From Stentor roeselii (lineage: Eukaryota > Ciliophora > Heterotrichea > Heterotrichida > Stentoridae), in NCBI GenBank assembly GCA_006503475.1, contig RSEH01000037.1, positions 141,569 to 205,568 of the forward strand: a stretch of 64,000 nucleotides of DNA, written 5' to 3'. Numbering within the stretch: position 1 is the first letter of the stretch; every line of letters starts with the position of its first letter. The notes under the pieces were generated by a model. It was not told the origin of the DNA. It saw only the letters and a list, made by a program, of their open reading frames with translations, and did not search any database. The position numbers and the translations under genes were made by a program. This document shows, one piece after another, positions 32,337 through 54,108 of the stretch.

Positions 32337-33512
32337 ATGGATAGGATAAGACTCATCAACAATCATTTATCAACTCCTGAAGTTTGTATTGTCGCTGTTG
32401 GAAGAAGTCCGATTCTCAGGTCTTTTGACTTGTTTTCAACGATTGAAGAGTCTGACCTGGCAGCTCAAACTCTTCAAGGCACTTTGAAAAATTTCTTGAT
32501 AAGTCCTTCACATGTGCAAGAATTTTACCTGGGAAAAGTTTTTTCTTCTAATGTAGGTCAGGCCCTTCCTAAGCAGATCTTGGCACTTGCAGGGTTTCCT
32601 GAATCGGCAAGTTCGATGTCGGTCAACAAGTTATGTGCGAGTGGAATGAAAGCGACTGAACTTGCCTATCTTTCAATTCTCTCTGGCCAGGCAGATTGTG
32701 TCGTCGCCGGAGGACTGGAGATAATGTCAAGGCCGCCTTTTCTGCTATCTTTGAGAAATGGAATTGGGAATAAAGTGAAAGACTCTTTTGACTTAGATGG
32801 CTTTCCTGATGCGGTTACTAAAGAAACTCCAATTGTGATCGCTGATAAGTTTTGTAGAGACTTTGGATACTCTAGAGAAGAACTTGATGAATACGCCAGG
32901 TTTAGCATTGAAAAGGCTCATAAGGCGAAAAAAGAAATGAAGTTCACGGAAGTTGTTGAAATTTCACTTCCGAAATCACAGAAGGTGAAAAATGATTATT
33001 TTCGACCTCTTTCCGCTGTTGATAACTCGAAACCAGTTCATAAAAACGGGTTTAACACTCCTGGAAACTCTTGTGGACTTAGTGATGGAGCTTCTTTTTT
33101 AGTACTCTCCAGTCGAAGCAAGGCTATCAGAGAAGGATGGAAAGTCCTTGCTTCGATTCTTTCTTTCTCTGATGCTGAACAACACGCAAGTCTTTTCCCT
33201 TCAACTCCAACATTAGCCACAGAAAAAGCTTTAAAAAAAGCTGGAATTTTGATAAATCAAATCGATTTCATGGAGATCAATGAACCTTTCGCTTGTGTCG
33301 TCCTTCACAATTCAAAAATGCTGAAATTCCCTTTAAATAAAATCAATATTTACGGAGGCGCCATCAGCATGGGTCACCCAGTCGGCAGCTCAGGCTGCCG
33401 AATAATCGGAACTTTAACTTCAATCTTAAAAAAAGAAGGAGGAACCTTCGGAGTCGCTTCAATTTGCAATGCAGGTGGAGGAGGTTCAGCTGTTGTTTTA
33501 AAGCGAGAATAA
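32337..33512 (+). CDS. Acetyl-CoA acetyltransferase-like thiolase
   Basis: A 391-residue thiolase of normal length. The nucleophile Cys is in NKLCASGMKA, the active-site His in GHPVGSSGCR, and the second acid/base Cys in ICNAGGGGSAVVL. The usual NEAFA motif reads NEPFA. The preserved SMGHPVGSSG and ETP/ADK region match cytosolic/mitochondrial acetoacetyl-CoA thiolases, which condense two acetyl-CoA or split acetoacetyl-CoA. No clear mitochondrial presequence or peroxisomal C-terminal tripeptide is evident (it ends LKRE), so a cytosolic location is the simplest reading. It starts 12 nt after the dehydrogenase. Confidence 0.94.
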   Translation: MDRIRLINNHLSTPEVCIVAVGRSPILRSFDLFSTIEESDLAAQTLQGTLKNFLISPSHVQEFYLGKVFSSNVGQALPKQILALAGFPESASSMSVNKLCASGMKATELAYLSILSGQADCVVAGGLEIMSRPPFLLSLRNGIGNKVKDSFDLDGFPDAVTKETPIVIADKFCRDFGYSREELDEYARFSIEKAHKAKKEMKFTEVVEISLPKSQKVKNDYFRPLSAVDNSKPVHKNGFNTPGNSCGLSDGASFLVLSSRSKAIREGWKVLASILSFSDAEQHASLFPSTPTLATEKALKKAGILINQIDFMEINEPFACVVLHNSKMLKFPLNKINIYGGAISMGHPVGSSGCRIIGTLTSILKKEGGTFGVASICNAGGGGSAVVLKRE

Positions 33513-38174: not shown

Positions 38175-38759
38175 TATTGACAATTTTAAGAGTTTTTCAT
38201 TGTTTGGAGATTGGGATGAGGTGATGACTTGAGCTGGTATGGATAGAGAAATAATTGGAAAGGTTAAAATGGTTAAGAATATTTTATTAAGTGAGAGGTT
38301 TTCGATTTAACTTGTTCTGCAGGAGTTTGATTTGAAGATAGTTTAATTATTCAATTAGAGATGGAGCTATTCACTGAGATTAATTAAATTTTTGTTTTTG
38401 TTCTAGCTTATTGATCTTGCACAATATTAAGGTACATGATTAAGTCCCTAAAATCAAATCTTTCCTATACTAAAAGGATCTCATTCACATATGGAAAGAT
38501 CCTTCAGATTTCAATAAAATTATTTATTAACTACCTTATACCAGAAATTCATTTAATTTTAAAAATCATCCATTTTGTAATTGTTCCGATTTTTACCATT
38601 TTCAATCTCCATTCAGCGCAATGGTAAACATTCAACAATCCATATCCTTCATCTCTCTAATCTTCCTTCCTCAACTAATTTCCCCAAAATTCCTTCAAAT
38701 CTCCAAATCTCTATTTCCTATTTTCAAAAATTCTTCATTTTCAAAAGTTCCGAATATGG
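38175..38759. other. Divergent intergenic region, 585 bp
   Basis: Longest gap in the dense part of the window, between an unknown minus-strand gene and the WD40-channel gene. From ~38560 the + strand becomes G-poor and C/T-rich towards the start codon, as seen upstream of GAPDH. No gene or specific element recognised. Confidence 0.5.
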
Positions 38760-41700
38760 ATGATTACAATGAAAAATAGCGAAGAACTAGGACTATCCCT
38801 TTTAGAAAAGTCAAAAGAGCTTCATCTGACCTTCAACGAAATAAAATCACGATCCCAAAAGCACTTAAATGTAAAATCAACCCAATTCACCAGTCCCTTC
38901 ACTTCACTTCCCGATTCCTTAGACCTTCCAGGGATGAGTAAAGAATCGCTAAGACTCCTTTCCTCGAAATCCACTGAAAACCAGCATCTCTGGGACGAAA
39001 TCATTCAAAAGATCGGTCAACAAGAAGAAGCAGAAGACTCTTCAATGCCTCAAAAACAAACAATAAAAAAAACCGAAGAATCTTACTACCTTCCAAGAAT
39101 CCTGAAAGAAAAGTTCAAAGCAATTGAAAGCTACACCCCTTATCTCGACCTCGGCAAGTGTGAAGCAGGTGTAGACTGCATCGACGTTTCATTTGACTCA
39201 AAATTTTTACTCCTCGGGATGACTGACAAGACAGTGAAAGTTTGGAATTTGTCTGAAAATCAACCCGAGTTTGAACTTGCAGGTCATTCAGATTCAATTA
39301 ATTCTATCGCGATTTCAGCTGATAACAGGTACATCGTCACTGGCGCTGATGATTATTGTGTAAAGGTTTGGGACTTTCATGAGAAAAAAGAAGTCTTTTC
39401 GTTGACTGGACATCTGAACTCGGTTTGTTCTGTTGCGATTTCAAGGGACTGTCGATTTGTTTTAACTAGTTCTGAAGATAAAACAGTGAAAATCTGGGAT
39501 TTTCTAGCGGCTTCTGAAGTTTTTACATTTGTGGGACATGAAGATACTGTTTTTTCTGTTGATTTTTCTAGTGATCAGCTACTCTTCGCTAGTGGCTCAG
39601 GGGACTGCACGGTGAAGGTCTGGTCAGTTAAAGAGAAAAAAGAACTCGTTACTTTTAAAGGACATTCTGAAGCTGTCCTTACAGTCGCCTTCTCATTTGA
39701 CTCACGGTTTGTAGCAAGTGGTTCAGAAGACTGTTCAGTGATTCTTTGGAATATCACAAGGAAAGTCCAAGAGTTTCTTTTTTCCCATCATCGAGGTGCT
39801 GTCCGTTCCTTGAAGTTCACTTCTGACGGTCAATACCTGGTAAGTGGTTCTTCTGATAAACGACTATCTTTATTGAATGTAGAAACAAAAGAAGTTGTTT
39901 TTTCTTCGAAAAAACAAGGAGACTCTATTTTTTCAGTTGTCGCTTCAGGAGATGGCAGATTTGTACTCAGCGCTTCAGATGACAGTCGAGTCACTGTCTG
40001 GACCTTGCAGGAGGACTACGTGCTTGAAGGACATTCCAGTGAAGTAAGGGCCGTCGCTATTTCAAAAGATGGAAAATTTGTAGTCAGTGCCTCAGGAAGT
40101 CCTTTCGCAGGTGAAAATCATGTAAAGGTCTGGAACACGCAAACGAAAAAAATGGAGAATTTTTTATCTGGACATTTGAAAGAAGTTCATTCAGTTGCCG
40201 TCGCTGATGACTTCAGCTTAATCGTCTCTGGCTCAGCTGATCGCACTGTAAAGCTCTGGAGAACAAAGGACATGAAAGAAGTTGAAACCTTCTCCGGGCA
40301 TTTAAAAGAAGTCCTTTCAGTTGCATTGTCAAGTGACGCGAAACTGGTCATCAGCGGCTCGGCAGACAAGACAATAAAAATCTGGAACCTTCAGTCAAAA
40401 GAAGACTTTTCCTTAACAGGCCATTCAGGAAGTGTTACTTCAGTTGCAGTCTCTTCTGACTCTCAGTACCTGGCAAGTGGGTCTACAGACTATTCAGTAA
40501 AACTTTGGAACTTACCTGGAAAATGTGAAGAATTCACTTTTAAAGGACATATTTCTGAAGTTTTCACTGTCGCGTTCTCGAAAGATGCGAAATTCATTGT
40601 AAGTGGCTCTGGGAACCCTTTTTCACAAGATAACTGTCTGAGGGTCTGGAATGTGCAAATGAAAAAAATCGAGTTTTTATTGAATGGACACTCGGCACCT
40701 GTTGTTTCAGTCGTTTTTGCTGATGATGGAAGTTGCATTGTAAGTGGGTCTAAAGATAACACTGTCAGGGTCTGGAGTGTTTCTTGTCAATGTGAAAAGT
40801 TCTCAATGGCAGGACCTGCTTCTTGGGTCGCTGCTGTCGCGGTTTCGCCTGATGGGAAAAATATTGTCGCGGGTGCTGGAAAAGTTGTGAAAGTTTGGAA
40901 TAGGAATACGAAAAGTCATGAGTTTTCAGTTTCTAATCATGAGGAAGCAGTTGTTGGTGTTGCTGTCTCCAATGATGGAAAGTATGTCGTTAGTGCTTCA
41001 CTTGATTGCACTGTTAAGGTTTGGAATGCGAAGAATAGGGAATGTTGGACTTTAGCTGAGAATAATGCTTGTGTCTTGGATGTTACGATTTCGTTGGATA
41101 GTTGTTTTATTGCTGCTGCACTTGCTGATACGAGAATCAGGGTTTGGAATACTAGGAATCAAAATGATTTTGTATTAGTTGGACATTCCCTTCCAGTTTC
41201 ATCAGTATCAATATCAACTGACAACCTTTATCTAGTCTCCGGTTCTCACGATAAAACCTTGAAACTATGGAGCCTATCTAATTTCCAAGAAATATTTTCA
41301 TTTACAGGGCATTCATCAGAAGTTCTTTCAGTCTGCATCAGCTCTTCAAACAAATTCATCGGAAGTGGTTCATGTGACAATTCAGTAAAACTTTGGAGTC
41401 TGGAATCTCGAAGTCTGATCGTAAGTTTCACAGGACACAAATCATGGGTCAGTTCAGTTTCGATTTCTTTTGATAGCTCGCTGCTCATCAGTGGTTCATT
41501 CGACTGCAGTATAAAAGTTTGGAATATTTCATCGAAATCTTTGGATCTGACGTTTTCAGGACATTCTCGAGCAGTGAGATCATTGAAAATATCTTCGGAT
41601 AATAAGTTCATCTTTAGCGGCTCGTATGATAAGACTATTAGAGTTTGGAGTTTATTTACGAGAAGAGCGGAACTTGTGCTTGAAGGTCATTCTAAAGAGG

Positions 41701-44700
41701 TTGAAGCAATTGCAATCACTCCAGATGGTAAAAGTATTGTGAGTGGGTCTTCGGATTGTTCATTCAAAACATGGAACCTCCACCTTTTACGAGAAGAAAA
41801 GGTCTGGACAAGCAAATCCGAATCATTCTCATCAGTAGGTATCCTAGCTGAAGGTAAATACGTGGTCGCCTCATCAAAAGTCTCAGGTTGCAAAGTGTGG
41901 AACTCTCAAAACCAAATCGAAGAATTCAGCCTTCAAGCAAAAGTTTCACGTATCCGATCAGTAGCAATATCCTTAGACAGGTCTTTAATAGTGACAGGTT
42001 CTCGAGGCCACAGCATTTATTTATACGACTTCAACGGAAAGCAATTAGGTTCATTTCTTAAAGCTCATACAAGAAGCATCAACTCAGTGGCGATTTCCGT
42101 TGATAACACCCTGATAATCAGTGGTTCAAGTGATAAAACCGTTAAAATTTTCAGCAGGGCTTCAATGACAGAGCTGATAACATTAACAGGCCACGGAAGT
42201 AAAGTCATTTCAGTAAACTCTTCAAAAGACTCAAAGTTCATCGTGAGTCTTTCCTCAGACAACGTCATAAAACTGTGGAACCTCGAAGCAAAGTTAGAAG
42301 AAGTCACATTAACAGGCCATTCCGACTTCATCAACTCAATCGCTATTTCAAAGGACTCCAAGTGGGTCGTCAGTGGCGCTGATGACGGCTCTGTCAAGGT
42401 CTGGGACTTGGAAAAGCGAGTTGAGGTAAAATCTTTAAAAGTGACAAGTAAAGTCTTTTCAGTCGCTATTTCAAGTGACTGTTCATTTGTAGTGATCGGC
42501 TCGAATGACTGTAATGTGAAGGTCTGGAGTTTTAGTCATGGTTTGCAAGAATTGGAAGGTCATTCAGGGGGAGTTTTTTCTGTTGCAGTCTCTTTTGACG
42601 GCCTTAGGATTTTAACAGGTTCTGAAGATAGGACTGTTCGGATTTGGCCTGTTTTTAAAGATATTCAAAAAGAAAGAGTTTTTTCTGGACATGTTGATTC
42701 AGTTCTTTCGCTTTCGTTTATTTCAGGTGATAAGTACTTTGTGACTGGGTCGAAAGATAAGACGATTAAGTACTGGGATGCTTTGAAAACTAGAGAAGTC
42801 TTTACATTGTACGGCCATTTAGATGCAGTTGTCTCGGTCAGTGCTTCGGAAGACGCCAAGTTCATCGTCAGCGGGTCTGATGATAAAACAGTTAAAGTTT
42901 GGAGTGTTATAGAGAAGAAAATATTTTTTACTTTTGATGCTTCTTCTGCCATTCGGTCAGTTTTCATTGGAAAAAATAGTTTTTATGCTGTTTCGGCTGC
43001 TGCTGATGGCAGAGTGCTTATTTGGAATGTTAGAGATAAAAGGCAGGAATTCACGATTAATGGACATTCAAAGTCGGTGAATTCTGTGATTTTTTCAAAT
43101 GACTCCAGATTCATTGTAACGGCTTCTTCAGATAAAAGTATTAAAATCTGGAATATTGAAGGGAAACCTGCGAAGTTTTCTTTTGATAACCCAGGAACTC
43201 AGTCTAGAGCTTTGGCAATCTCAGATGATAGCAGACTTATGGCAAGTATTTCGAATGAAAAGAATGTGAAGGTTTGGGACTTGATGCAGAGAAATGAATT
43301 TTTTGTTTTTGAACACCCTGGAACGATTCATTCTGTTGCTATATCGGCGGACGGTGAACTTCTGGCGAGTGGCTCAGTTGACTCTAAGATAAAGTTGTGG
43401 AGTACCAAGACCAAAACAGAGCTTTTTACCTTCATAGCAAATTCCTGCGTTTTCCACTCTCTAGCAATATCAAGCGATAAACAATTCATAGTAAGTGGTG
43501 CTGACGATCGAACCGTAAAAGTATGGGGAATAAACGATAAAGACTTAAAGTTCACAAAATCAGGTCATCTAAAGCCTGTATTATCTGTTTCAATTTCAAA
43601 AAACAGTCAAATCATCGTCAGTGGTTCCGAAGACATGAGGGTAAAACTATGGGCACTAATTGAAGACAAAGAATTATTCACCTTCGAAGGACATTCCGCC
43701 GCTGTCAAGTGTGTCGCGATTTCAAGGGACTCGGCTTACGCTGTGACAGGGTCTTGTGATAAGAACGTCGTTGTTTGGAACTTGAGTCTTCGACGTGAAG
43801 AATTTACTTTAAAAGGACATTCGGCTGATGTGCTTTCTGTTGACTTCTCAATGAATGGAAATTATATCGTAAGTGCTTCTGGTGATAAAAGCATTAAAAT
43901 CTGGAGATTTGATGAAAAAAGAGAAGAATTCGTCTTGAATGGACATTCAGATGCTGTTTGCTCTGTTCTTGTTTCATCTGACGGCAAAAATGTCATCAGC
44001 TGCTCGAATGACCAGAAAATAAAAGTATGGAGTTTGCATGAAAAACAGGAAAATATGCAGAATGACAGAGAAAGTGTCTTAAGTAGCTTCTCTTGCTTTT
44101 CAAAGGACCAGGATTATATCTGTGATTACTCGAATTGCTCTTTGAGGTTCAGGGAAAGTAGGACTTTGAACCGTGTTGTTGACTTTGATGTTATTTTGTT
44201 TAACCAGGGAAAGATCAAGATTAGGACTCAATATAAAGAAGTCACTTTTCATTTTAATCAAACAATTTTTTCTTCAAGGTCCTTTTCAGAAGTGCTGAGG
44301 TATAATAAAAAGTACCCTGGGATGGTGAAGTATATGATTAAAGATGGAGTTTTGAACTTGAACTCTTGGGGTCCTCAAACTGTTCTTGACATGTTTTACC
44401 AGAAAAATGGACTCACGTTCAGACATAGTCTTAGAATTTTAAAGGAAAAGGACTATCAATCACTTCAAACTAATTATTTTGAGTTTGTTTATACTGAGTT
44501 TAAATATCAGATTACTCATTTTTTGGCTTGTTTAGGTGAACATAATATTATCAAGCAGCATTTCAATTTGGAATCTGGACTTTCATTGAAAGCTGATATC
44601 TTTGGAAAGTCTCCGTTGTTTTATTCTATTTGTGAAAAACATCCGAAAGTCACTGATTTACTTTTAAGCTACTTGGCTAGTATTAACTCGGATCATAGAG

Positions 44701-46475
44701 ATTTGATTGAACAGACGTTGATTTCTGTGAGAAATGACTTTTTTTTGATTATTGAAAATTCTTCTAAAGTATTACCGGCATTTTTAAGGAAAGTTCTTTT
44801 ACATACTGAAAGGTTTGACTCTCCTAATGTACAACTTCCACTGTTAAATCTAAGCAATTCATTTACCCCAAACATACAAGACTTCACAGAAGTCTCCACC
44901 CAAGAAACAGTTCTAGCAATATTCAAATACATTCCATTCAAGCAGTCCCTCGACCCATTTTCCATCGAAAACATAAAAAACCTATCAAAGTTAAAAAAAT
45001 GCAAAAACGATGCAATCTATGAGACAGAGTTAATCCGATTAATAATCGACATGAACTGGAAAGCAGTTTACAACTGGGTTGCTTTTTATTCCCTCCTACT
45101 CATATCGAACATTTTGACTTTCATTCTCAGTATCTGGCTGGGAAGAACAAGTATTTATTGCTGGGTGCCAATGATTTTAATAAACTCTCTGATTTTAATG
45201 TGGGAAATAACACAAGTAATCGTTTCTAAAAATTCTGAGTACTTTAGTGACATTTGGAACTTATTCGATATCGCGAATCTTCTGCTTATCATTTACTGGT
45301 ACCTTGCCGAGATCTTCAATTTTGACTCGAATTACGAAAACTTCTTGCTTGGCTTTTTTCTGCTTTCAAGAGGAATGAACGCTTTTAAAATAATCGACGG
45401 GACCAGGTATTACGTTCAATTAGTTCTCATCTCGTTAAACAGCATAAAATATTTTCTTGTCATGTTTTTTTACTCCACCTTTTTTTTTGCAGTACTTTTC
45501 ACGATTTCTCAAAATGACGACTCAGGTCAAAAAAACTTCAGCTTGGGACAATTGTGGAATGATTCTTGGGAATTCAACTTTGGACAAAATGTGGTCGATG
45601 CCCAAGATTCGTCGATTTTGTTGAGTGCTGCGACTTTTCTTGCGAAAATTATTAATGTTGTGTTGATGTTGAACATGCTTATTTCGATTTTAGGAGACTC
45701 TTATGATTGTTTTTTGATAGAAAAGCATATCATTGATTATAAGGAAAAGTTAAGTTCTGCTATTGAAATACAAAAAATACTCTTCTGGAAAAAGTATCAT
45801 GGCCTTGACCGTTACTTGCAGATTCTTTCTTCTCCTTTTGATGATGATAAAGGAGAAAAGGACTGGCAAGGACGAATTTTGTATTTAGAAAAGCGACAGG
45901 AAAGAAAAATCGATAATTTGAACTCTTCAATGATGCATGAAACTTTCAATATTGTAAAAAAAATCAAAAATTCTGACTTGAAAAGAAGTGAAAAAGAAGC
46001 AAAAATAGAAGAAAAAATCGTCAATGTTGATAAAAAAATCTTTGAAACCAGTGCAGATCTCAGTGAAAAAATGTTTGAAGTTAGAAAAAATATCGAAAAA
46101 AGCATTTTTGAAGTTGAATCGAAAGTCGCTGATGTTCGAGAAACTGTTGTCCAAGTTGAGGAAAAGATTGATGGAGTGGATATGAAGATTGAAGATAATA
46201 TCTCTGTTGCTCATGAGATTATTGCTAAACAAATTTTAAATCTTCAAGAAAAAGTTGTGAATATTGAAGAAAAGATTGAAAAAAATAACCTGGGTATTCA
46301 GGAACTGATTAAGGATGAAATGGGAAAAGTTGAAAATAAGATTAATGCTGTTGAAGGCAAGGTGCAAGGAATTCAAAAGAGAATTGATGATAAAATGGGA
46401 AAGATGCAGAAGAAGTTGAGGGGTATTGAAGATCATATGTTATTGATTGCAGAGCATATTTTAAAGATTAAATAG
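38760..46475 (+). CDS. Giant WD40-repeat / TRP-like ion channel fusion with C-terminal coiled coil
   Basis: A single uninterrupted frame of 2571 residues. Residues 1-125 form a charged lead. About 39 consecutive WD40 repeats (I counted them by their GH...WD-type ends, e.g. GHSDSINSIAISADNRYIV, SGSADKTVKLW) fill about residues 130-1763. A ~330-residue intracellular linker follows, then six hydrophobic segments: ~2105-2130, 2133-2155, 2164-2187, 2193-2215, 2229-2251 and 2294-2316. A pore-like segment (FSLGQLWNDSWEFNFGQN) lies between S5 and S6, and S6 ends VVLMLNMLISILGDSYD, the TRP/ion-transport signature. Residues ~2378-2571 are heptad-rich (KIEEKIVNVDKKIFE...). A cation channel gated or scaffolded by several beta-propellers is the natural reading. 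S4 lacks the regular arginines of a voltage sensor. The stop is TAG. Confidence 0.92.
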   Translation: MITMKNSEELGLSLLEKSKELHLTFNEIKSRSQKHLNVKSTQFTSPFTSLPDSLDLPGMSKESLRLLSSKSTENQHLWDEIIQKIGQQEEAEDSSMPQKQTIKKTEESYYLPRILKEKFKAIESYTPYLDLGKCEAGVDCIDVSFDSKFLLLGMTDKTVKVWNLSENQPEFELAGHSDSINSIAISADNRYIVTGADDYCVKVWDFHEKKEVFSLTGHLNSVCSVAISRDCRFVLTSSEDKTVKIWDFLAASEVFTFVGHEDTVFSVDFSSDQLLFASGSGDCTVKVWSVKEKKELVTFKGHSEAVLTVAFSFDSRFVASGSEDCSVILWNITRKVQEFLFSHHRGAVRSLKFTSDGQYLVSGSSDKRLSLLNVETKEVVFSSKKQGDSIFSVVASGDGRFVLSASDDSRVTVWTLQEDYVLEGHSSEVRAVAISKDGKFVVSASGSPFAGENHVKVWNTQTKKMENFLSGHLKEVHSVAVADDFSLIVSGSADRTVKLWRTKDMKEVETFSGHLKEVLSVALSSDAKLVISGSADKTIKIWNLQSKEDFSLTGHSGSVTSVAVSSDSQYLASGSTDYSVKLWNLPGKCEEFTFKGHISEVFTVAFSKDAKFIVSGSGNPFSQDNCLRVWNVQMKKIEFLLNGHSAPVVSVVFADDGSCIVSGSKDNTVRVWSVSCQCEKFSMAGPASWVAAVAVSPDGKNIVAGAGKVVKVWNRNTKSHEFSVSNHEEAVVGVAVSNDGKYVVSASLDCTVKVWNAKNRECWTLAENNACVLDVTISLDSCFIAAALADTRIRVWNTRNQNDFVLVGHSLPVSSVSISTDNLYLVSGSHDKTLKLWSLSNFQEIFSFTGHSSEVLSVCISSSNKFIGSGSCDNSVKLWSLESRSLIVSFTGHKSWVSSVSISFDSSLLISGSFDCSIKVWNISSKSLDLTFSGHSRAVRSLKISSDNKFIFSGSYDKTIRVWSLFTRRAELVLEGHSKEVEAIAITPDGKSIVSGSSDCSFKTWNLHLLREEKVWTSKSESFSSVGILAEGKYVVASSKVSGCKVWNSQNQIEEFSLQAKVSRIRSVAISLDRSLIVTGSRGHSIYLYDFNGKQLGSFLKAHTRSINSVAISVDNTLIISGSSDKTVKIFSRASMTELITLTGHGSKVISVNSSKDSKFIVSLSSDNVIKLWNLEAKLEEVTLTGHSDFINSIAISKDSKWVVSGADDGSVKVWDLEKRVEVKSLKVTSKVFSVAISSDCSFVVIGSNDCNVKVWSFSHGLQELEGHSGGVFSVAVSFDGLRILTGSEDRTVRIWPVFKDIQKERVFSGHVDSVLSLSFISGDKYFVTGSKDKTIKYWDALKTREVFTLYGHLDAVVSVSASEDAKFIVSGSDDKTVKVWSVIEKKIFFTFDASSAIRSVFIGKNSFYAVSAAADGRVLIWNVRDKRQEFTINGHSKSVNSVIFSNDSRFIVTASSDKSIKIWNIEGKPAKFSFDNPGTQSRALAISDDSRLMASISNEKNVKVWDLMQRNEFFVFEHPGTIHSVAISADGELLASGSVDSKIKLWSTKTKTELFTFIANSCVFHSLAISSDKQFIVSGADDRTVKVWGINDKDLKFTKSGHLKPVLSVSISKNSQIIVSGSEDMRVKLWALIEDKELFTFEGHSAAVKCVAISRDSAYAVTGSCDKNVVVWNLSLRREEFTLKGHSADVLSVDFSMNGNYIVSASGDKSIKIWRFDEKREEFVLNGHSDAVCSVLVSSDGKNVISCSNDQKIKVWSLHEKQENMQNDRESVLSSFSCFSKDQDYICDYSNCSLRFRESRTLNRVVDFDVILFNQGKIKIRTQYKEVTFHFNQTIFSSRSFSEVLRYNKKYPGMVKYMIKDGVLNLNSWGPQTVLDMFYQKNGLTFRHSLRILKEKDYQSLQTNYFEFVYTEFKYQITHFLACLGEHNIIKQHFNLESGLSLKADIFGKSPLFYSICEKHPKVTDLLLSYLASINSDHRDLIEQTLISVRNDFFLIIENSSKVLPAFLRKVLLHTERFDSPNVQLPLLNLSNSFTPNIQDFTEVSTQETVLAIFKYIPFKQSLDPFSIENIKNLSKLKKCKNDAIYETELIRLIIDMNWKAVYNWVAFYSLLLISNILTFILSIWLGRTSIYCWVPMILINSLILMWEITQVIVSKNSEYFSDIWNLFDIANLLLIIYWYLAEIFNFDSNYENFLLGFFLLSRGMNAFKIIDGTRYYVQLVLISLNSIKYFLVMFFYSTFFFAVLFTISQNDDSGQKNFSLGQLWNDSWEFNFGQNVVDAQDSSILLSAATFLAKIINVVLMLNMLISILGDSYDCFLIEKHIIDYKEKLSSAIEIQKILFWKKYHGLDRYLQILSSPFDDDKGEKDWQGRILYLEKRQERKIDNLNSSMMHETFNIVKKIKNSDLKRSEKEAKIEEKIVNVDKKIFETSADLSEKMFEVRKNIEKSIFEVESKVADVRETVVQVEEKIDGVDMKIEDNISVAHEIIAKQILNLQEKVVNIEEKIEKNNLGIQELIKDEMGKVENKINAVEGKVQGIQKRIDDKMGKMQKKLRGIEDHMLLIAEHILKIK
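39150..44055 (+). repeat. ~39 tandem WD40 repeats encoded in series (~126 bp each)
   Basis: Repeats are diverged at DNA level but regular at protein level, about 42 residues each. Repeats 8 and 12 (~nt 40030 and ~40548) share a rare insertion (SGSPFAGENHVKVW / SGNPFSQDNCLRVW), pointing to duplication of a four-repeat block. Confidence 0.9.
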
Positions 46476-46692: not shown

Positions 46693-48717
46693 CTAACTAC
46701 CACCTACCTTTGCAAAATGCAGCGAGTCCTCAACAAGAATCTCAAAAGGTTCAAAATCACTTGAGTAAGAAACAAGATTCGACAAAGAAAAACTCACAGC
46801 AACATTAGCCTGAACCCTAAAGTCTTCAAATAAAGAATTTCCAAACTCAAGTTTAAAAATTTCACTAGAATCATCAATATTTACATGATAAAACTTCAAA
46901 AAAACATCTAAAATCACTTCATCACAAAATCGACCAATAGGTACTCCAGGGAAACGATAAGTCAAATTATTGAGATTTATTTCAATCCTTTCCTTAATCA
47001 CTTCAAGAGCTTCTCTAACAGTATTATTAAAATCCTTTATTTCTTTCATCTTGCTACACGCACAAAATAAAACATTTGATTTAAGGTCTTTACAGTCTCT
47101 TGAATAACTCGCTATTTCTTCAACCCAATTCACAGCATTATTGACTTTAGTAGAAATTTTACTAAGAGCGAAAATAGTTTTACGAATGTCAAGTTTTGAA
47201 GTAAGTCTTCTGCTGTTTTCTGAAAGACAGTGATAAGAAGAACTGTATCGGTTGAGCAGTGATTTTTCAGCAATCACGAACATTGACGGTAGTAAAGTTT
47301 CTTGATAAGCTTCGACAGATCTATGCCAGTTGCCGTATCTCATTCCGTGATCTGCTCCTAAAAAGATGAAACTTTCTGATCTGCCTTTTGTGGTCTGGAA
47401 AAAGTCTTTCAAGAAAATGGTCAGGTCGTTGTCGAGAGTGTTTGCATGCTGGCCTGTTTTTTCATGACCTGCGTTTAAGTGGAGATAAATCCACATGTTT
47501 AGCCCTTGGTATTGGCTTATTAGTTCAAGGGTGTATTTTAACATGTAGGTGTGAGTTTGATATGTACCGAAACATCTCTGCTCGGTATTCAGCTTTTCTG
47601 ATTTTATATCTCCGTAAACATCGAGTAAACAGTAAAATTGCCGGATTGAAATGTCGACTTTTAAGTTTTCTCCTAGGACATCTGGAAACCATGAATCGCA
47701 ATCATCGAATCCCATTATTGTTAGATATCCTTGTTTTTTTAATTCGTGCCACATTGATTTATTATCCAGAACATCTGAGTTTCTAGTCCTTTCTTTAGCT
47801 TTAGTCACAGGTTTTCCACTAAAGATAGGGACTTGATTATGAACAGTGTCAGATCCAAAAGTACTATGCATTTTAAAATCAAATACAGCCATATTCGGTA
47901 TTTCCTTAGTGCTTTCATTTAAAAACTTCACAAGTTTCGGCAGCTTTCTATAAAAATGTCTTCTAGAAATCGAGTCAAGAGTAAGCATGAAGATAATTCT
48001 TGGCTTTCCTTCAACAAAGTTTTTTTTTTCATTGAACATATTTCGATCGAAGATTGGTTTCATGTCTCCATGTTGGAAGTCTTCAGAGTCGATATCATAT
48101 CTTTGAAAAGTGCCGTAGTGTCCTGGTTTTTTATCAAGATCAGTGATTGAAGAACAGAGACCGACGGCAAATGAAATATTTCTAGCTTCAACAATTCTTT
48201 CATATTTATTTAGTTTGAATTCAACTGTGTTTTCTTTTCTCATCAAAGTTTGGTTTTTTATTGGGCCTGAAAAATAGTAACCGGTTAAAGGTGGTTTGCA
48301 GTTTAGGAAAAGGGAATTTGATTTTCTGTCAATGCGAAGTTTTGATTCTCTTACATCTGTCACATCTGAGCACTTTGGGTAGTGATATGAAGGGAATAAT
48401 GAGGAACCTTCAGCTACTGAAAGACCGAAATTTGTGGGCCTGCACGAATATTTGGTAAGATTTAACTCATCAGTTGCATCAATCTTTAAGTAAGAAAATG
48501 TATAGCTAAAGTCTTTATTTGACAAAGGACTGATATCTTTAGCTACTCCTTCATTTTTTAGTTCTGGATAGAATAAAGATCCATTTGTTGATGTTTCAAG
48601 ACTTCTAATTTGATGATGATTGAAAAGTTCATCCTGATGATAAACCAGAAGTAACAATAATAGAAGAGATAATAAAGCTGTAGAGATCACCAAAATAATT
48701 CTGTTTCTGGCCATCAT
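46693..48717 (-). CDS. DUF229-type sulfatase-like type II membrane protein
   Basis: A 674-residue protein. Residues ~5-27 (RIILVISTALLSLLLLLLLV) form a signal anchor, so the bulk is lumenal or extracellular, with several N-glycosylation sequons. The core has IIFMLTLDSISRRHFYRKLP, NQVPIFSGKPV, WHELKKQGYLTIMGFDDC, GHEKTGQHANTLDNDL and IFLGADHGMRYGNWH, the layout of the DUF229 family within the alkaline-phosphatase/sulfatase superfamily (metal Asp/His in TLDS and GADHG). The nucleophile position reads Thr/Ser-like rather than a classical sulfatase CxPxR. Function in the family is poorly known; a phosphoester or sulfate transfer on glycans is inferred. The stop is TAG. Confidence 0.88.
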   Translation of the reverse strand: MMARNRIILVISTALLSLLLLLLLVYHQDELFNHHQIRSLETSTNGSLFYPELKNEGVAKDISPLSNKDFSYTFSYLKIDATDELNLTKYSCRPTNFGLSVAEGSSLFPSYHYPKCSDVTDVRESKLRIDRKSNSLFLNCKPPLTGYYFSGPIKNQTLMRKENTVEFKLNKYERIVEARNISFAVGLCSSITDLDKKPGHYGTFQRYDIDSEDFQHGDMKPIFDRNMFNEKKNFVEGKPRIIFMLTLDSISRRHFYRKLPKLVKFLNESTKEIPNMAVFDFKMHSTFGSDTVHNQVPIFSGKPVTKAKERTRNSDVLDNKSMWHELKKQGYLTIMGFDDCDSWFPDVLGENLKVDISIRQFYCLLDVYGDIKSEKLNTEQRCFGTYQTHTYMLKYTLELISQYQGLNMWIYLHLNAGHEKTGQHANTLDNDLTIFLKDFFQTTKGRSESFIFLGADHGMRYGNWHRSVEAYQETLLPSMFVIAEKSLLNRYSSSYHCLSENSRRLTSKLDIRKTIFALSKISTKVNNAVNWVEEIASYSRDCKDLKSNVLFCACSKMKEIKDFNNTVREALEVIKERIEINLNNLTYRFPGVPIGRFCDEVILDVFLKFYHVNIDDSSEIFKLEFGNSLFEDFRVQANVAVSFSLSNLVSYSSDFEPFEILVEDSLHFAKVGGS

Positions 48718-51408: not shown

Positions 51409-52563
51409 TTATTTTTGGTAAAGGTAAAGGTGTTGATAATCCTTCATAATAATAGTCCATCCTTGTTCCATCAAGAAATTATGAACAAGTCCGCACTTTC
51501 CGCCATGAGGTAATGCGCAGTCATCAATCAAAACAATACTTCTTCTATGTAATTTGTGATAAATCCTCTTAATCTCTTCTAAATGATGCCTCTGAGAGAC
51601 TTCAGAGTCCTGTTCCGACCAATCAAAGCTATCCAGGTACAAAAAGTCAACAGGTCCATAGTTGAATTCCTGCAAAAACTTCAAAGAGTCACTTAAAACG
51701 ACTTCAACATAAGGAATGAACTGTTCAGTCGATTTTATTGATTCTAAGCAGCTGGCCTGACTGATATCAACTGAAAAAAGCTTTGATTTCGTAAGTAAAG
51801 CGTAATGTCCAAAGAACATAGTCGAGCACCCATCATTAAAGCAAGATAAAGTATTCCCATACCTTGCAGTTCCAGTTTCAACAAGAACCTTCGCGTTATA
51901 CTTGAGCATCAGTTCAAGAGCGCGCTTGAAAGTGTTGTACCTTCGCTGGGAAGGGTTCAGTCTGCTCGACAAGATAATGTCAGGGATTGAGTTTATCAGA
52001 ACACCTTCATTTGTACAGTCACAGTCCCATGATCGAGGCTCATTCAAATCAAGAATTTTTTTATCTGCATTTCTTTCATCTTCTGAATTCTTTTTTTGAC
52101 TTTCATCTTCAGGATTTTTCAACTTTTCAGTTAAGTCTTCTGGATTTTTCGATGGGGTTTCATTTGAGGTTACTTCTGGATTGGCACTTGAAAGAACTTT
52201 TTCTGAAGATGAAGATGGCACCATGTAGGCGAAACATTTTATATGAGGTGGTTCGGGAACTGCCATACAACATTGAAGATGATCAAAAGGGTCTGCGGAA
52301 CCGACAGGAATCTCTAAAGCCGCCTTGGGTGAAAAATGACCTAATAGCCCTGGAAATAAAGGACAGTCCGGATGCATAAAGACTTTGCCGTCAGGGTTGA
52401 AGGGAATAGGATGGCTGGTGGATTCAGGGGGAGTGACTTCGTTGTCGCCTCCCATCAGGACTGGGGAGAGGTCTTCGGAAATTACGAATTTTTGATGAAT
52501 TTGAAGAGCAAGAAGAAGAATAACGGTGGTTGCTTTGAGCGAACATAGAGTTAATTCAGCCAT
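51409..52563 (-). CDS. Secreted/membrane-anchored class I methyltransferase-like protein
   Basis: A 384-residue protein. An N-terminal hydrophobic segment (CSLKATTVILLLALQIH) suggests a signal peptide or anchor. Residues ~60-200 include Cys pairs (CPLFPG, LQCCMAVPEP) and a Ser/Glu/Lys/Asn-rich linker. From ~res 205 a Rossmann-type domain is seen: AKVLVETGTARYGNTLSCF (SAM-binding motif I-like), LFSVDIS, YVEVVLSDSLKFLQEF, PVDFLYLDSFDW and RSIVLIDDCALPHGGK. This matches the Methyltransf_24 / cephalosporin-hydroxylase-like group. The acceptor is unknown; location in the secretory pathway is inferred. Confidence 0.78.
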   Translation of the reverse strand: MAELTLCSLKATTVILLLALQIHQKFVISEDLSPVLMGGDNEVTPPESTSHPIPFNPDGKVFMHPDCPLFPGLLGHFSPKAALEIPVGSADPFDHLQCCMAVPEPPHIKCFAYMVPSSSSEKVLSSANPEVTSNETPSKNPEDLTEKLKNPEDESQKKNSEDERNADKKILDLNEPRSWDCDCTNEGVLINSIPDIILSSRLNPSQRRYNTFKRALELMLKYNAKVLVETGTARYGNTLSCFNDGCSTMFFGHYALLTKSKLFSVDISQASCLESIKSTEQFIPYVEVVLSDSLKFLQEFNYGPVDFLYLDSFDWSEQDSEVSQRHHLEEIKRIYHKLHRRSIVLIDDCALPHGGKCGLVHNFLMEQGWTIIMKDYQHLYLYQK

Positions 52564-54108
52564 TAATTAGACAGATAAATTGAACAGATTGTATTTAAGA
52601 TAAGGAAGAGCCTAAACATTGAATGAATTTTTCATTGAACTTATATTATATTTTTATTATTATCTTAAGATAGAGTTACAAAATCTTGGAACATGGAAAT
52701 TCTTTAAGAAAATCATTCTATTACAAACTAAAATATCACATCAGTTCCCAATTACATTCTCATCATCATATCTTGGATTTCTTTAAAATTATACCAAATC
52801 TCTTAATAAAATTAAAATGGAAAAGAAAGCGGTGTATTTTAAAAAGTATAAATTCACTATAAATACATTTTATTCTACTTGTTTCATATTGTAATACCAT
52901 TTCAATATTTTATTGTTTTAGAGTAAAAATAATGAATTTATTAATAGTATTTTAGATATTCATATTAAAATCCAAGTTTTGTCTGCAGTATATGTGATAT
53001 TCATCTATATTTTAATCTAATTAAGATGTGGGAATGGAAAATCGAGTTAATTATTTATAGATACCAATTTCCTATTATCTGGTATATGCATGACGTTTCT
53101 TGCATCTTATCTTTATTTTGAACTATTAAAAATCCATCCAGTATTTATTTTAAATCTTTAATAATTTTTTTGGAAATATATGAAGCGGCTACGACGCATA
53201 AACTTAAAAAATTGCTAGGTATATTATCTTATCTAAACAATAAATCTAGTCATATCTTGAAATTTTATTATATGTTAATTCTCTCGATAATCCTTCTCAT
53301 ATATTTCGTTTCTTCTATCTTCTTCCATACAAATCCAGTATATTAATGATAGGTCCTATTTTTTTTCTTTTTCTGATTGATATTATACCTTTAATTCCAT
53401 TCCACGTACACTCTATTATATTAGTATGCATCTGAATCATAGGATCATCATTTTTTAATTGAAAGTAACTTTAGCATAAAAAATATTGTATTCTTAAAAA
53501 AACAGATATCGATTTTCTGAATGATTTTTTTACTCAATAAAAATGTAAGCAGGGTTTTCATTCAAGAAAATATCTTGAAGTATTGACATGAAGGAATTGA
53601 CATGATTGAAAATACATGAAGAAAGAAAAATTGGAAGTATTTACGAATTTATATAAATATATTTTAAATTCATTAGAAGCTTCTTAAAAATTTAAACTAA
53701 TGAGGGTGTAATCCCTTCTAACTTTATACTCAAAAACTTAGTTATATAATAAAACATTTACTCAAAAAAAAAACAATGAGAATTAATCAGTTATATGGCA
53801 ATACCTTAATCAAGGTAAAAATTAATAGTAATTATAACATTTTTTTGTTAAATACTCTTTGATTTTAACAATATTTGAGGTGTATTGGCTAAGAAGGCTA
53901 TATTAGAATCATATAGAAAGTCAGATAGGAACACTAGAGACAAAAGATAGCATCCTTCCTACAACGAAAGTCAATTTTTTTAAACTAATTTAAATAAATT
54001 TGTAAAATATGTGTTTACCTAGAATCACATTGTTATTCCAGAGTCTTAAATATTTCTCTCTACATCTCCATCAAATCAACCCTCCCTATCCTAAAATAAC
54101 TAACTAAC
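52564..54108. other. AT-rich intergenic region, 1.5 kb
   Basis: No reading frame of note on either strand and no ordered repeat. Nothing recognised. Confidence 0.6.

Follow-up and report, generated by a model that had tools for sequence, protein, structure and literature searches.

The window, by which we mean the whole stretch of 64,000 nucleotides analysed, carries on its forward strand a gene in which WD40 blades, ankyrin repeats, a channel core and a coiled coil are predicted within one reading frame (Table 1). From stop to stop the frame is open throughout its 2,598 codons (38679-46475); its terminator is a TAG at 46473-46475, and it contains no in-frame TGA. A non-standard code in which TAA and TAG specify glutamine was ruled out, since TAG terminates this frame and the stops of the 16 intact large paralogues described below are TAG (nine), TAA (six) or TGA (one). 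These mixed terminators, together with an excess of 15-base GTA...TAG spacings, fit a standard-code heterotrich ciliate such as Stentor, which has tiny introns and the standard genetic code. The spacings were counted over the whole window, where 33 are exactly 15 bases long versus 9-27 for every other length between 10 and 35, and they resemble the very short introns of heterotrich ciliates. Upstream of the repeats, a Pfam scan of residues 1-130 returned one chance-level match (E 0.092) and nothing else.

Table 1. Parts of the WD40-channel gene, with positions in the window and the basis on which each part was placed.
Feature	Residues	Positions	Strand	Basis
Complete open reading frame (2,571 aa and stop TAG; standard code)	1-2571	38760..46475	+	First ATG at 38760, without in-frame stop
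N-terminal leader, without recognised domain	1-136	38760..39167	+	Pfam on residues 1-130
Array of 39 WD40 repeats	137-1764	39168..44051	+	Own-repeat profile and PF00400
Linker from WD40 array to ankyrin repeats	1765-1915	44052..44504	+	Poorly conserved in 14-member alignment A1
About two ankyrin repeats (HFLACLGEHN...DIFGKSPLFYSI)	1916-1976	44505..44687	+	Ank_2 and A1 profile
Second linker, motif RNDFFLIIENSS	1977-2089	44688..45026	+	Conserved block in A1
Pre-S1 segment ELIRLIIDMNWKAVY	2090-2104	45027..45071	+	Aligned to TRPV3 before S1, A3 profile
S1	2105-2130	45072..45149	+	Hydropathy; A3 alignment
S2	2132-2156	45153..45227	+	Hydropathy; A3 alignment
S3	2165-2186	45252..45317	+	Hydropathy (weak); conserved N and D
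S4 (RGMNAFKIIDGTR)	about 2196-2218	45345..45413	+	Alignment only, no hydropathy peak
S5	2228-2251	45441..45512	+	Hydropathy; A3 alignment
Pore helix and filter region (GQLWNDSWEFNFGQNVVDA)	2263-2281	45546..45602	+	Family profile against TRPV3 pore
S6, ending in NVVLMLNMLISILGDSY	2284-2315	45609..45704	+	Hydropathy; strongly conserved family block; TRPV3 S6 alignment
TRP-helix equivalent past S6	2320-2343	45717..45788	+	TRPV3 alignment up to the ILEFEKML end
DWQGRI motif and C-terminal coiled coil	2368-2571	45861..46472	+	Windowed heptad score of 2385-2571

The first-pass annotation had counted 39 WD40 repeats, and the count holds. A profile seeded from one repeat of the gene itself, and hence not independent of the array, found 39 in its first pass and again after each of three rebuilds (weakest i-Evalue 7.4e-10), with at most 25 residues between neighbouring repeats in residues 137-1764; the independent Pfam WD40 model PF00400 recognises 34 stretches, worth 961 bits over the whole protein. 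The repeats bear the tetrad (GH, D, W) typical of WD40 proteins, with the W present in 36 of the 39 blades, the D in 34 and the H in 29. The estimate of five or more propellers is arithmetic from the repeat count, and 39 blades do not divide evenly into sevens; a single-sequence AlphaFold prediction of the first 28 repeats gave no usable fold (pLDDT 36.8). By sequence, the solved structures closest to the last blades are highly repetitive WD40 proteins (2ymu and the WRAP-T entries), which have similar blades but are propellers without a channel.

Within the array the blades share a mean identity of 37%, with a best pair at 62%, a pS of 0.76 and 49% identity at the DNA level; recent blade duplication was ruled out on the first two of these values. 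Because the blades average only 37% identity and no pair exceeds 62%, the array is old and diversified, and its blades are silent on recent selection. No clear super-repeat emerged within the array (offsets of 24-25 blades scored slightly higher, at 0.40), nor did a register alignment of the array against its nearest paralogues give a clear register.

A hydropathy scan marks five hydrophobic stretches in residues 2105-2315, corresponding to S1, S2, S3, S5 and S6, and one false stretch within the WD40 array (770-789). The first-pass annotation had called this region a TRP-like channel, a claim that is weak when drawn from the window sequence alone, as the Pfam Ion_trans model scores the S1-S6 part at 17.1-17.9 bits (E 0.0019 at 17.9), below its cut-off of 25, and strong when drawn from the family to which the gene belongs. 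We built three family profiles: A1 from 14 family tails, the smaller A2 from the membrane parts of those tails, and A3 from 37 channel parts, namely the 14 tails and 23 more distant relatives (three members, L023, L027 and L028, were omitted from all three, having been judged by eye close to included rows). The 14-member A2 profile had Kv3.1 as its top match (7e-5) and matched TRP channels weakly (best 0.0013). The 37-member A3 profile matched TRPV3 best (E 1.8e-12), followed in order by Inactive, 6pw4, TRPV6, a TRPM2-like entry, TRPV2, 1, 4 and 5, the polycystins and TRPM2, and all of its best 60 matches out of 242 in the PDB belong to the TRP superfamily. Here we take the entry named Inactive to be an insect TRPV, and both it and the polycystins to be members of the superfamily. 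The 6pw4 entry, a ‘TRP-like ion channel’ matched at 5.4e-9, is a protist TRP, presumably Chlamydomonas TRP1, which is not known to carry a WD40 array. With E values up to 0.5 allowed, Pfam recognises Ion_trans in 32 of the 37 members (best 1.5e-14) and the polycystin channel in nine.

The match of the A3 profile with TRPV3 starts at the pre-S1 segment, takes in the pore helix, the filter and S6, and runs on into the TRP helix. A pore helix and filter between S5 and S6 are placed by alignment only, the family profile matching residues 2263-2281 with the pore helix and filter of TRPV3. The window gene has the filter glycine, in FNFGQ. By manual count, 12 of the 37 rows have GD or GG(E/D) at the filter; the window gene has GQN, and the selectivity of its channel may differ for this reason. 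The TRP box is described in PMC7431192 as a conserved extension of S6. None of the 37 rows has its tryptophan, and the column of the TRPV3 IWRLQ tryptophan is mostly occupied by D, as it is in the window gene.

Ankyrin repeats precede the linker in the window gene as they do in TRPV channels. Ank_2 matches the window gene alone at E 0.046; at E up to 0.5 it is found in 12 of the 14 family tails (best 6.8e-7), and the A1 profile matches ankyrin proteins at 1.1e-16. The TRPV ankyrin domain comprises six repeats and the family has about two; it further differs from TRPV in the WD40 array that lies before them, in the long C-terminal coiled coil and in the missing TRP-box tryptophan. These comparisons support a predicted channel that is TRPV-like and keeps about two ankyrin repeats. 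A single-sequence AlphaFold prediction of the tail gave no usable fold (pLDDT 39.3).

The coiled coil announced by the first-pass annotation at the C-terminus is borne out by a windowed heptad score of 0.559 over residues 2385-2571, against 0.278 ± 0.039 in shuffled versions, none of which (0/1,000) reached it; a control linker scored at chance (339/1,000). Scored in one fixed heptad phase from end to end, the coil falls short of significance (124/1,000), and it shifts phase along its length. Residues 2385-2571 contain no proline, and charged, coil-like ends are seen by eye, unscored, in the remaining 13 A1 tails. The proposal that this segment could set the oligomeric state is supported by the presence of the coil, which could act in this way.

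The gene singled out by the first-pass annotation is no lone oddity. We searched the genome (44.4 Mb assembled into 522 contigs, with the window on contig C273) with the channel part at E 0.001 or better and scored 119 of the 195 candidates of a first look; at least 119 places, the window gene included, carry this channel, a few of them short or with stops. Two further members lie on the same contig as the window (C273:99946-100938 and C273:8610-9515). Twenty large regions were fetched, comprising the window gene (L009), 16 intact long frames and three regions without an intact long frame (L013, L020 and L022), which were left out of the arrays and alignments; the last three have stops within the matched stretch and may be pseudogenes or reflect unrecognised introns or sequence errors. 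Every one of the 16 intact large paralogues has 17 to 36 WD40 repeats upstream of the common tail in one frame (the 21 repeats counted in L011 include one stray match in its tail). This shared order of parts upholds the earlier description of the fusion as a single coding unit. Among the members read, in which arrays run from 17 to 39 repeats over 17 genes, the window gene has the most, and its open frame is the longest among the 119 listed places.

Smaller members of the family were also read. In all three shorter members that were examined (1,205-1,315 aa, of which 1,145-1,266 were read) a WD40 or degenerate propeller precedes the common tail, the call in L031 coming from the own-repeat profile only. 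Upstream of the channel in eight lower-ranking relatives, WD40 repeats are clear in four, weak in one (L059, 7e-5), marginal in one (L057, 0.0014) and without a match in two (L052 and L055). With two of these eight showing none, WD40 repeats are usual rather than universal in our sample, which covers, with open upstream frames, 27 of the other 118 places. In L052, L055 and L057 (C257:132838, C103:78059 and C25:132201) about 730-770 in-frame residues without a clear WD40 match lie before the channel, and may represent another N-terminal domain or propellers past recognition. A midpoint-rooted tree of the 37 channel parts places the window gene with two genes of about 21 repeats (support 97/99), inside a large-array clade (99.9/100) that also holds L039, a gene covered in its channel part only.

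In five of the paralogues (L018, L021, L023, L024 and L027, with 24-30 blades each) the blades within an array are 56-70% identical, which suggests continuing exchange or duplication, and their variability is concentrated in a few columns of the blade (3, 4, 6, 12, 22 and 24). These five arrays would lend themselves well to work on concerted evolution. Columns 4, 6, 22 and 24 were first noticed in our data together with 3 and 12, and were later matched to published positions. According to PMC3419727, R1-2, R1 and D-1 are top-face interaction sites of WD40 propellers, and they correspond to columns 4, 6 and 22 of our blade alignment. In fungal HNWD genes, according to PMC1805685, codons 7, 9, 25 and 27 are positively selected and flank the conserved codons 8 and 26; columns 4, 6, 22 and 24 stand in the same spacing around columns 5 and 23, a mapping made by spacing and description and not by alignment with the HNWD letters.

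Ranking the 38 blade columns by variability in each of the 17 arrays gave column 22 a mean rank of 3.0, column 6 of 3.8 and column 4 of 4.1, making them the three most variable; column 24 (8.0) was sixth, behind columns 32 (7.1) and 12 (7.8). Only three of the 73,815 possible four-column sets, the set 4/6/22/24 itself included, rank as high. Blade diversification of the HNWD type, at codons 7, 9, 25 and 27, is in this sense found across the 17 arrays, with misses in single arrays (L011, where column 4 comes 18th, and L016, where column 24 comes 15th). The pattern was measured on the channel-gene arrays of this genome only; PMC5587647 reports hotspot diversity as a general trait of highly repetitive WD40 proteins.

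Columns 4, 6, 22 and 24, here called the hot columns, change much more freely than the remaining positions of the blade. Between close pairs of blades, drawn from six arrays (five for the per-column table) that were picked in both cases after their high internal identity had been seen, and after blades with fewer than 30 aligned columns had been dropped from the identity and pN/pS work, pN/pS at the hot columns was 0.85-1.22, versus 0.18-0.31 elsewhere, at nucleotide identities of 0.80 and 0.85 (Fisher p 1e-7 to 8e-19). At an identity of 0.90 the values were 1.06 versus 0.24 overall and 0.99 versus 0.21 within arrays; between arrays, with three pairs only, they were 0.40 versus 0.37 (Fisher p 1.0). 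L021 and L023 compared in register over 24 blades gave 0.78 at the hot columns versus 0.21 for the rest. Over nine pair sets the hot-column pN/pS ranged from 0.40 (the value from three pairs) to 1.22 and in none was it significantly above 1 (binomial p 0.42-0.83), so that a loss of constraint may also account for it.

We lean towards a working model, built from sequence comparisons, in which a TRPV-type channel would be gated, or positioned, by partners bound to its variable propellers. The gene product would be one subunit of a TRPV-type cation channel, four subunits probably joining through coil and pore, and each would carry several stacked cytoplasmic propellers, the top faces of which would bind partner proteins, with different partners for different genes. 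The binding or release of a partner, or a pull on it, might then reach the TRP helix and the S6 gate by way of the block formed by the ankyrin repeats, the linker and pre-S1. On this model every member of the family would deliver the same output, cation entry, and the members would vary in their protein-sensing input; the window gene has the longest input array among the members read.

The same long array could instead serve as a mechanical tether, a stack of propellers working like the ankyrin spring of NOMPC, anchored to cortical microtubules or contractile fibres, whose deformation would open the pore. NOMPC (TRPN), with its 29 ankyrin repeats, likewise places a very long cytoplasmic repeat region ahead of the TRP core; array length varies by gene, from 17 to 39 repeats in 17 arrays, as the length of a tether might; and a NOMPC structure is among the matches of the A1 tail profile, though by way of its ankyrin repeats. 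Against this, the very long array of the window gene is made of WD40 propellers and not of an ankyrin spring, and propellers are compact and form no continuous superhelix; the match to a propeller of EML, which is microtubule-associated, is only one among many generic WD40 matches, and a uniform tether would not need variability focused at partner-binding columns. A tethering function, putative here, strikes us as rather improbable. Since the variation is focused on the binding columns, we rank recognition above mechanical tethering, and the top-face variability would fit partner recognition at least as well.

A passive role for the propellers, placing the channel in cilia or cortex and gathering signalling enzymes while gating is left to voltage, calcium or lipid, appears to us just as improbable as the tether. 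It agrees with the common use of WD40 repeats as scaffolds, with a hot-column pN/pS near 1, which weak constraint would also be expected to give, and with the two of eight lower-ranking relatives that have no WD40 match, from which it seems that the channel core may do without; a fusion kept constant in all 16 intact large paralogues, and at high copy number, nevertheless exceeds what placement would need. That the gene itself is an artefact, whether through a false joining of two adjacent genes or through misassembly of the repeat array, is very improbable indeed: a single frame stays open for 2,598 codons, all 16 intact large paralogues, which lie on other contigs or at other sites of the same contig, likewise encode WD40 repeats and channel in a single frame, and the blades, at 49% DNA identity, are too different for repeat collapse.

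Beyond a partner-bound channel, a broader and more speculative picture can be drawn from the resemblance to the fungal HNWD and HET-E NOD-like receptors. As in those receptors (PMC1805685), the WD40 arrays are variable at codons 7, 9, 25 and 27, our columns 4, 6, 22 and 24, and some of the sibling channel genes have near-identical blades. They differ in that the output of the window family is a channel, in that positive selection is not significant, and in that the window gene's own array is diversified and not homogenised. No NACHT or HET domain was recognised by Pfam in residues 1-130 or downstream of the array, nor among the best 25 of the 47 families in a scan of the whole protein. As a tentative possibility, and a doubtful one, the genome may hold some hundred or more TRPV-type channels that together make up a repertoire, with the WD40 arrays as the variable recognition module. 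Recombination would multiply and homogenise the blades, and they would diversify at their top-face binding columns, as happens in fungal non-self receptors, with ion entry and not cell death as the output; the channels would then be protist receptor-channels for intracellular or self/non-self protein cues.

A search of the literature on WD40-TRP fusions and on heterotrich channels, judged by titles and the starts of abstracts among the matches listed and with subscription journals thinly covered and no preprints, yielded no description of such a fusion in any organism; in the main text of PMC9882060 the terms WD40 and channel are absent. The family joins TRP channels to a different class of input domain, multiplied to large copy number in one genome. 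Were the propellers to gate the pore, cation entry would be coupled directly to a modular and fast-evolving device for protein recognition, and the family would offer a concrete molecular candidate for sensing and discrimination by giant single cells. The series of array lengths on one core (few or degenerate blades, 17-25, 30-39) is a natural experiment in the growth of an input domain.

The neighbours of the gene in the window (at 3-20421, 32337-33512, 46693-48717 and 51409-52566) look ordinary. The neighbouring products include the end of a VPS13, a lipin, a Polo-like kinase, a DnaJ protein, a kinase with EF hands, a thiolase, a DUF229 protein and a methyltransferase-like protein; eight of the ten neighbouring frames scanned have a Pfam match, and no functional link to the channel was seen among them. 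A single scan of bacteria and archaea with one peptide pattern gave 38 stretches, none of which was confirmed as a relative. Elsewhere in the genome, four open frames of 2,618-2,715 aa (G000:C488:50723, C130:29604, C80:59337 and C85:56990) have partial Ion_trans matches, from model positions 66-103 onward, and perhaps represent a further family of very large channels.
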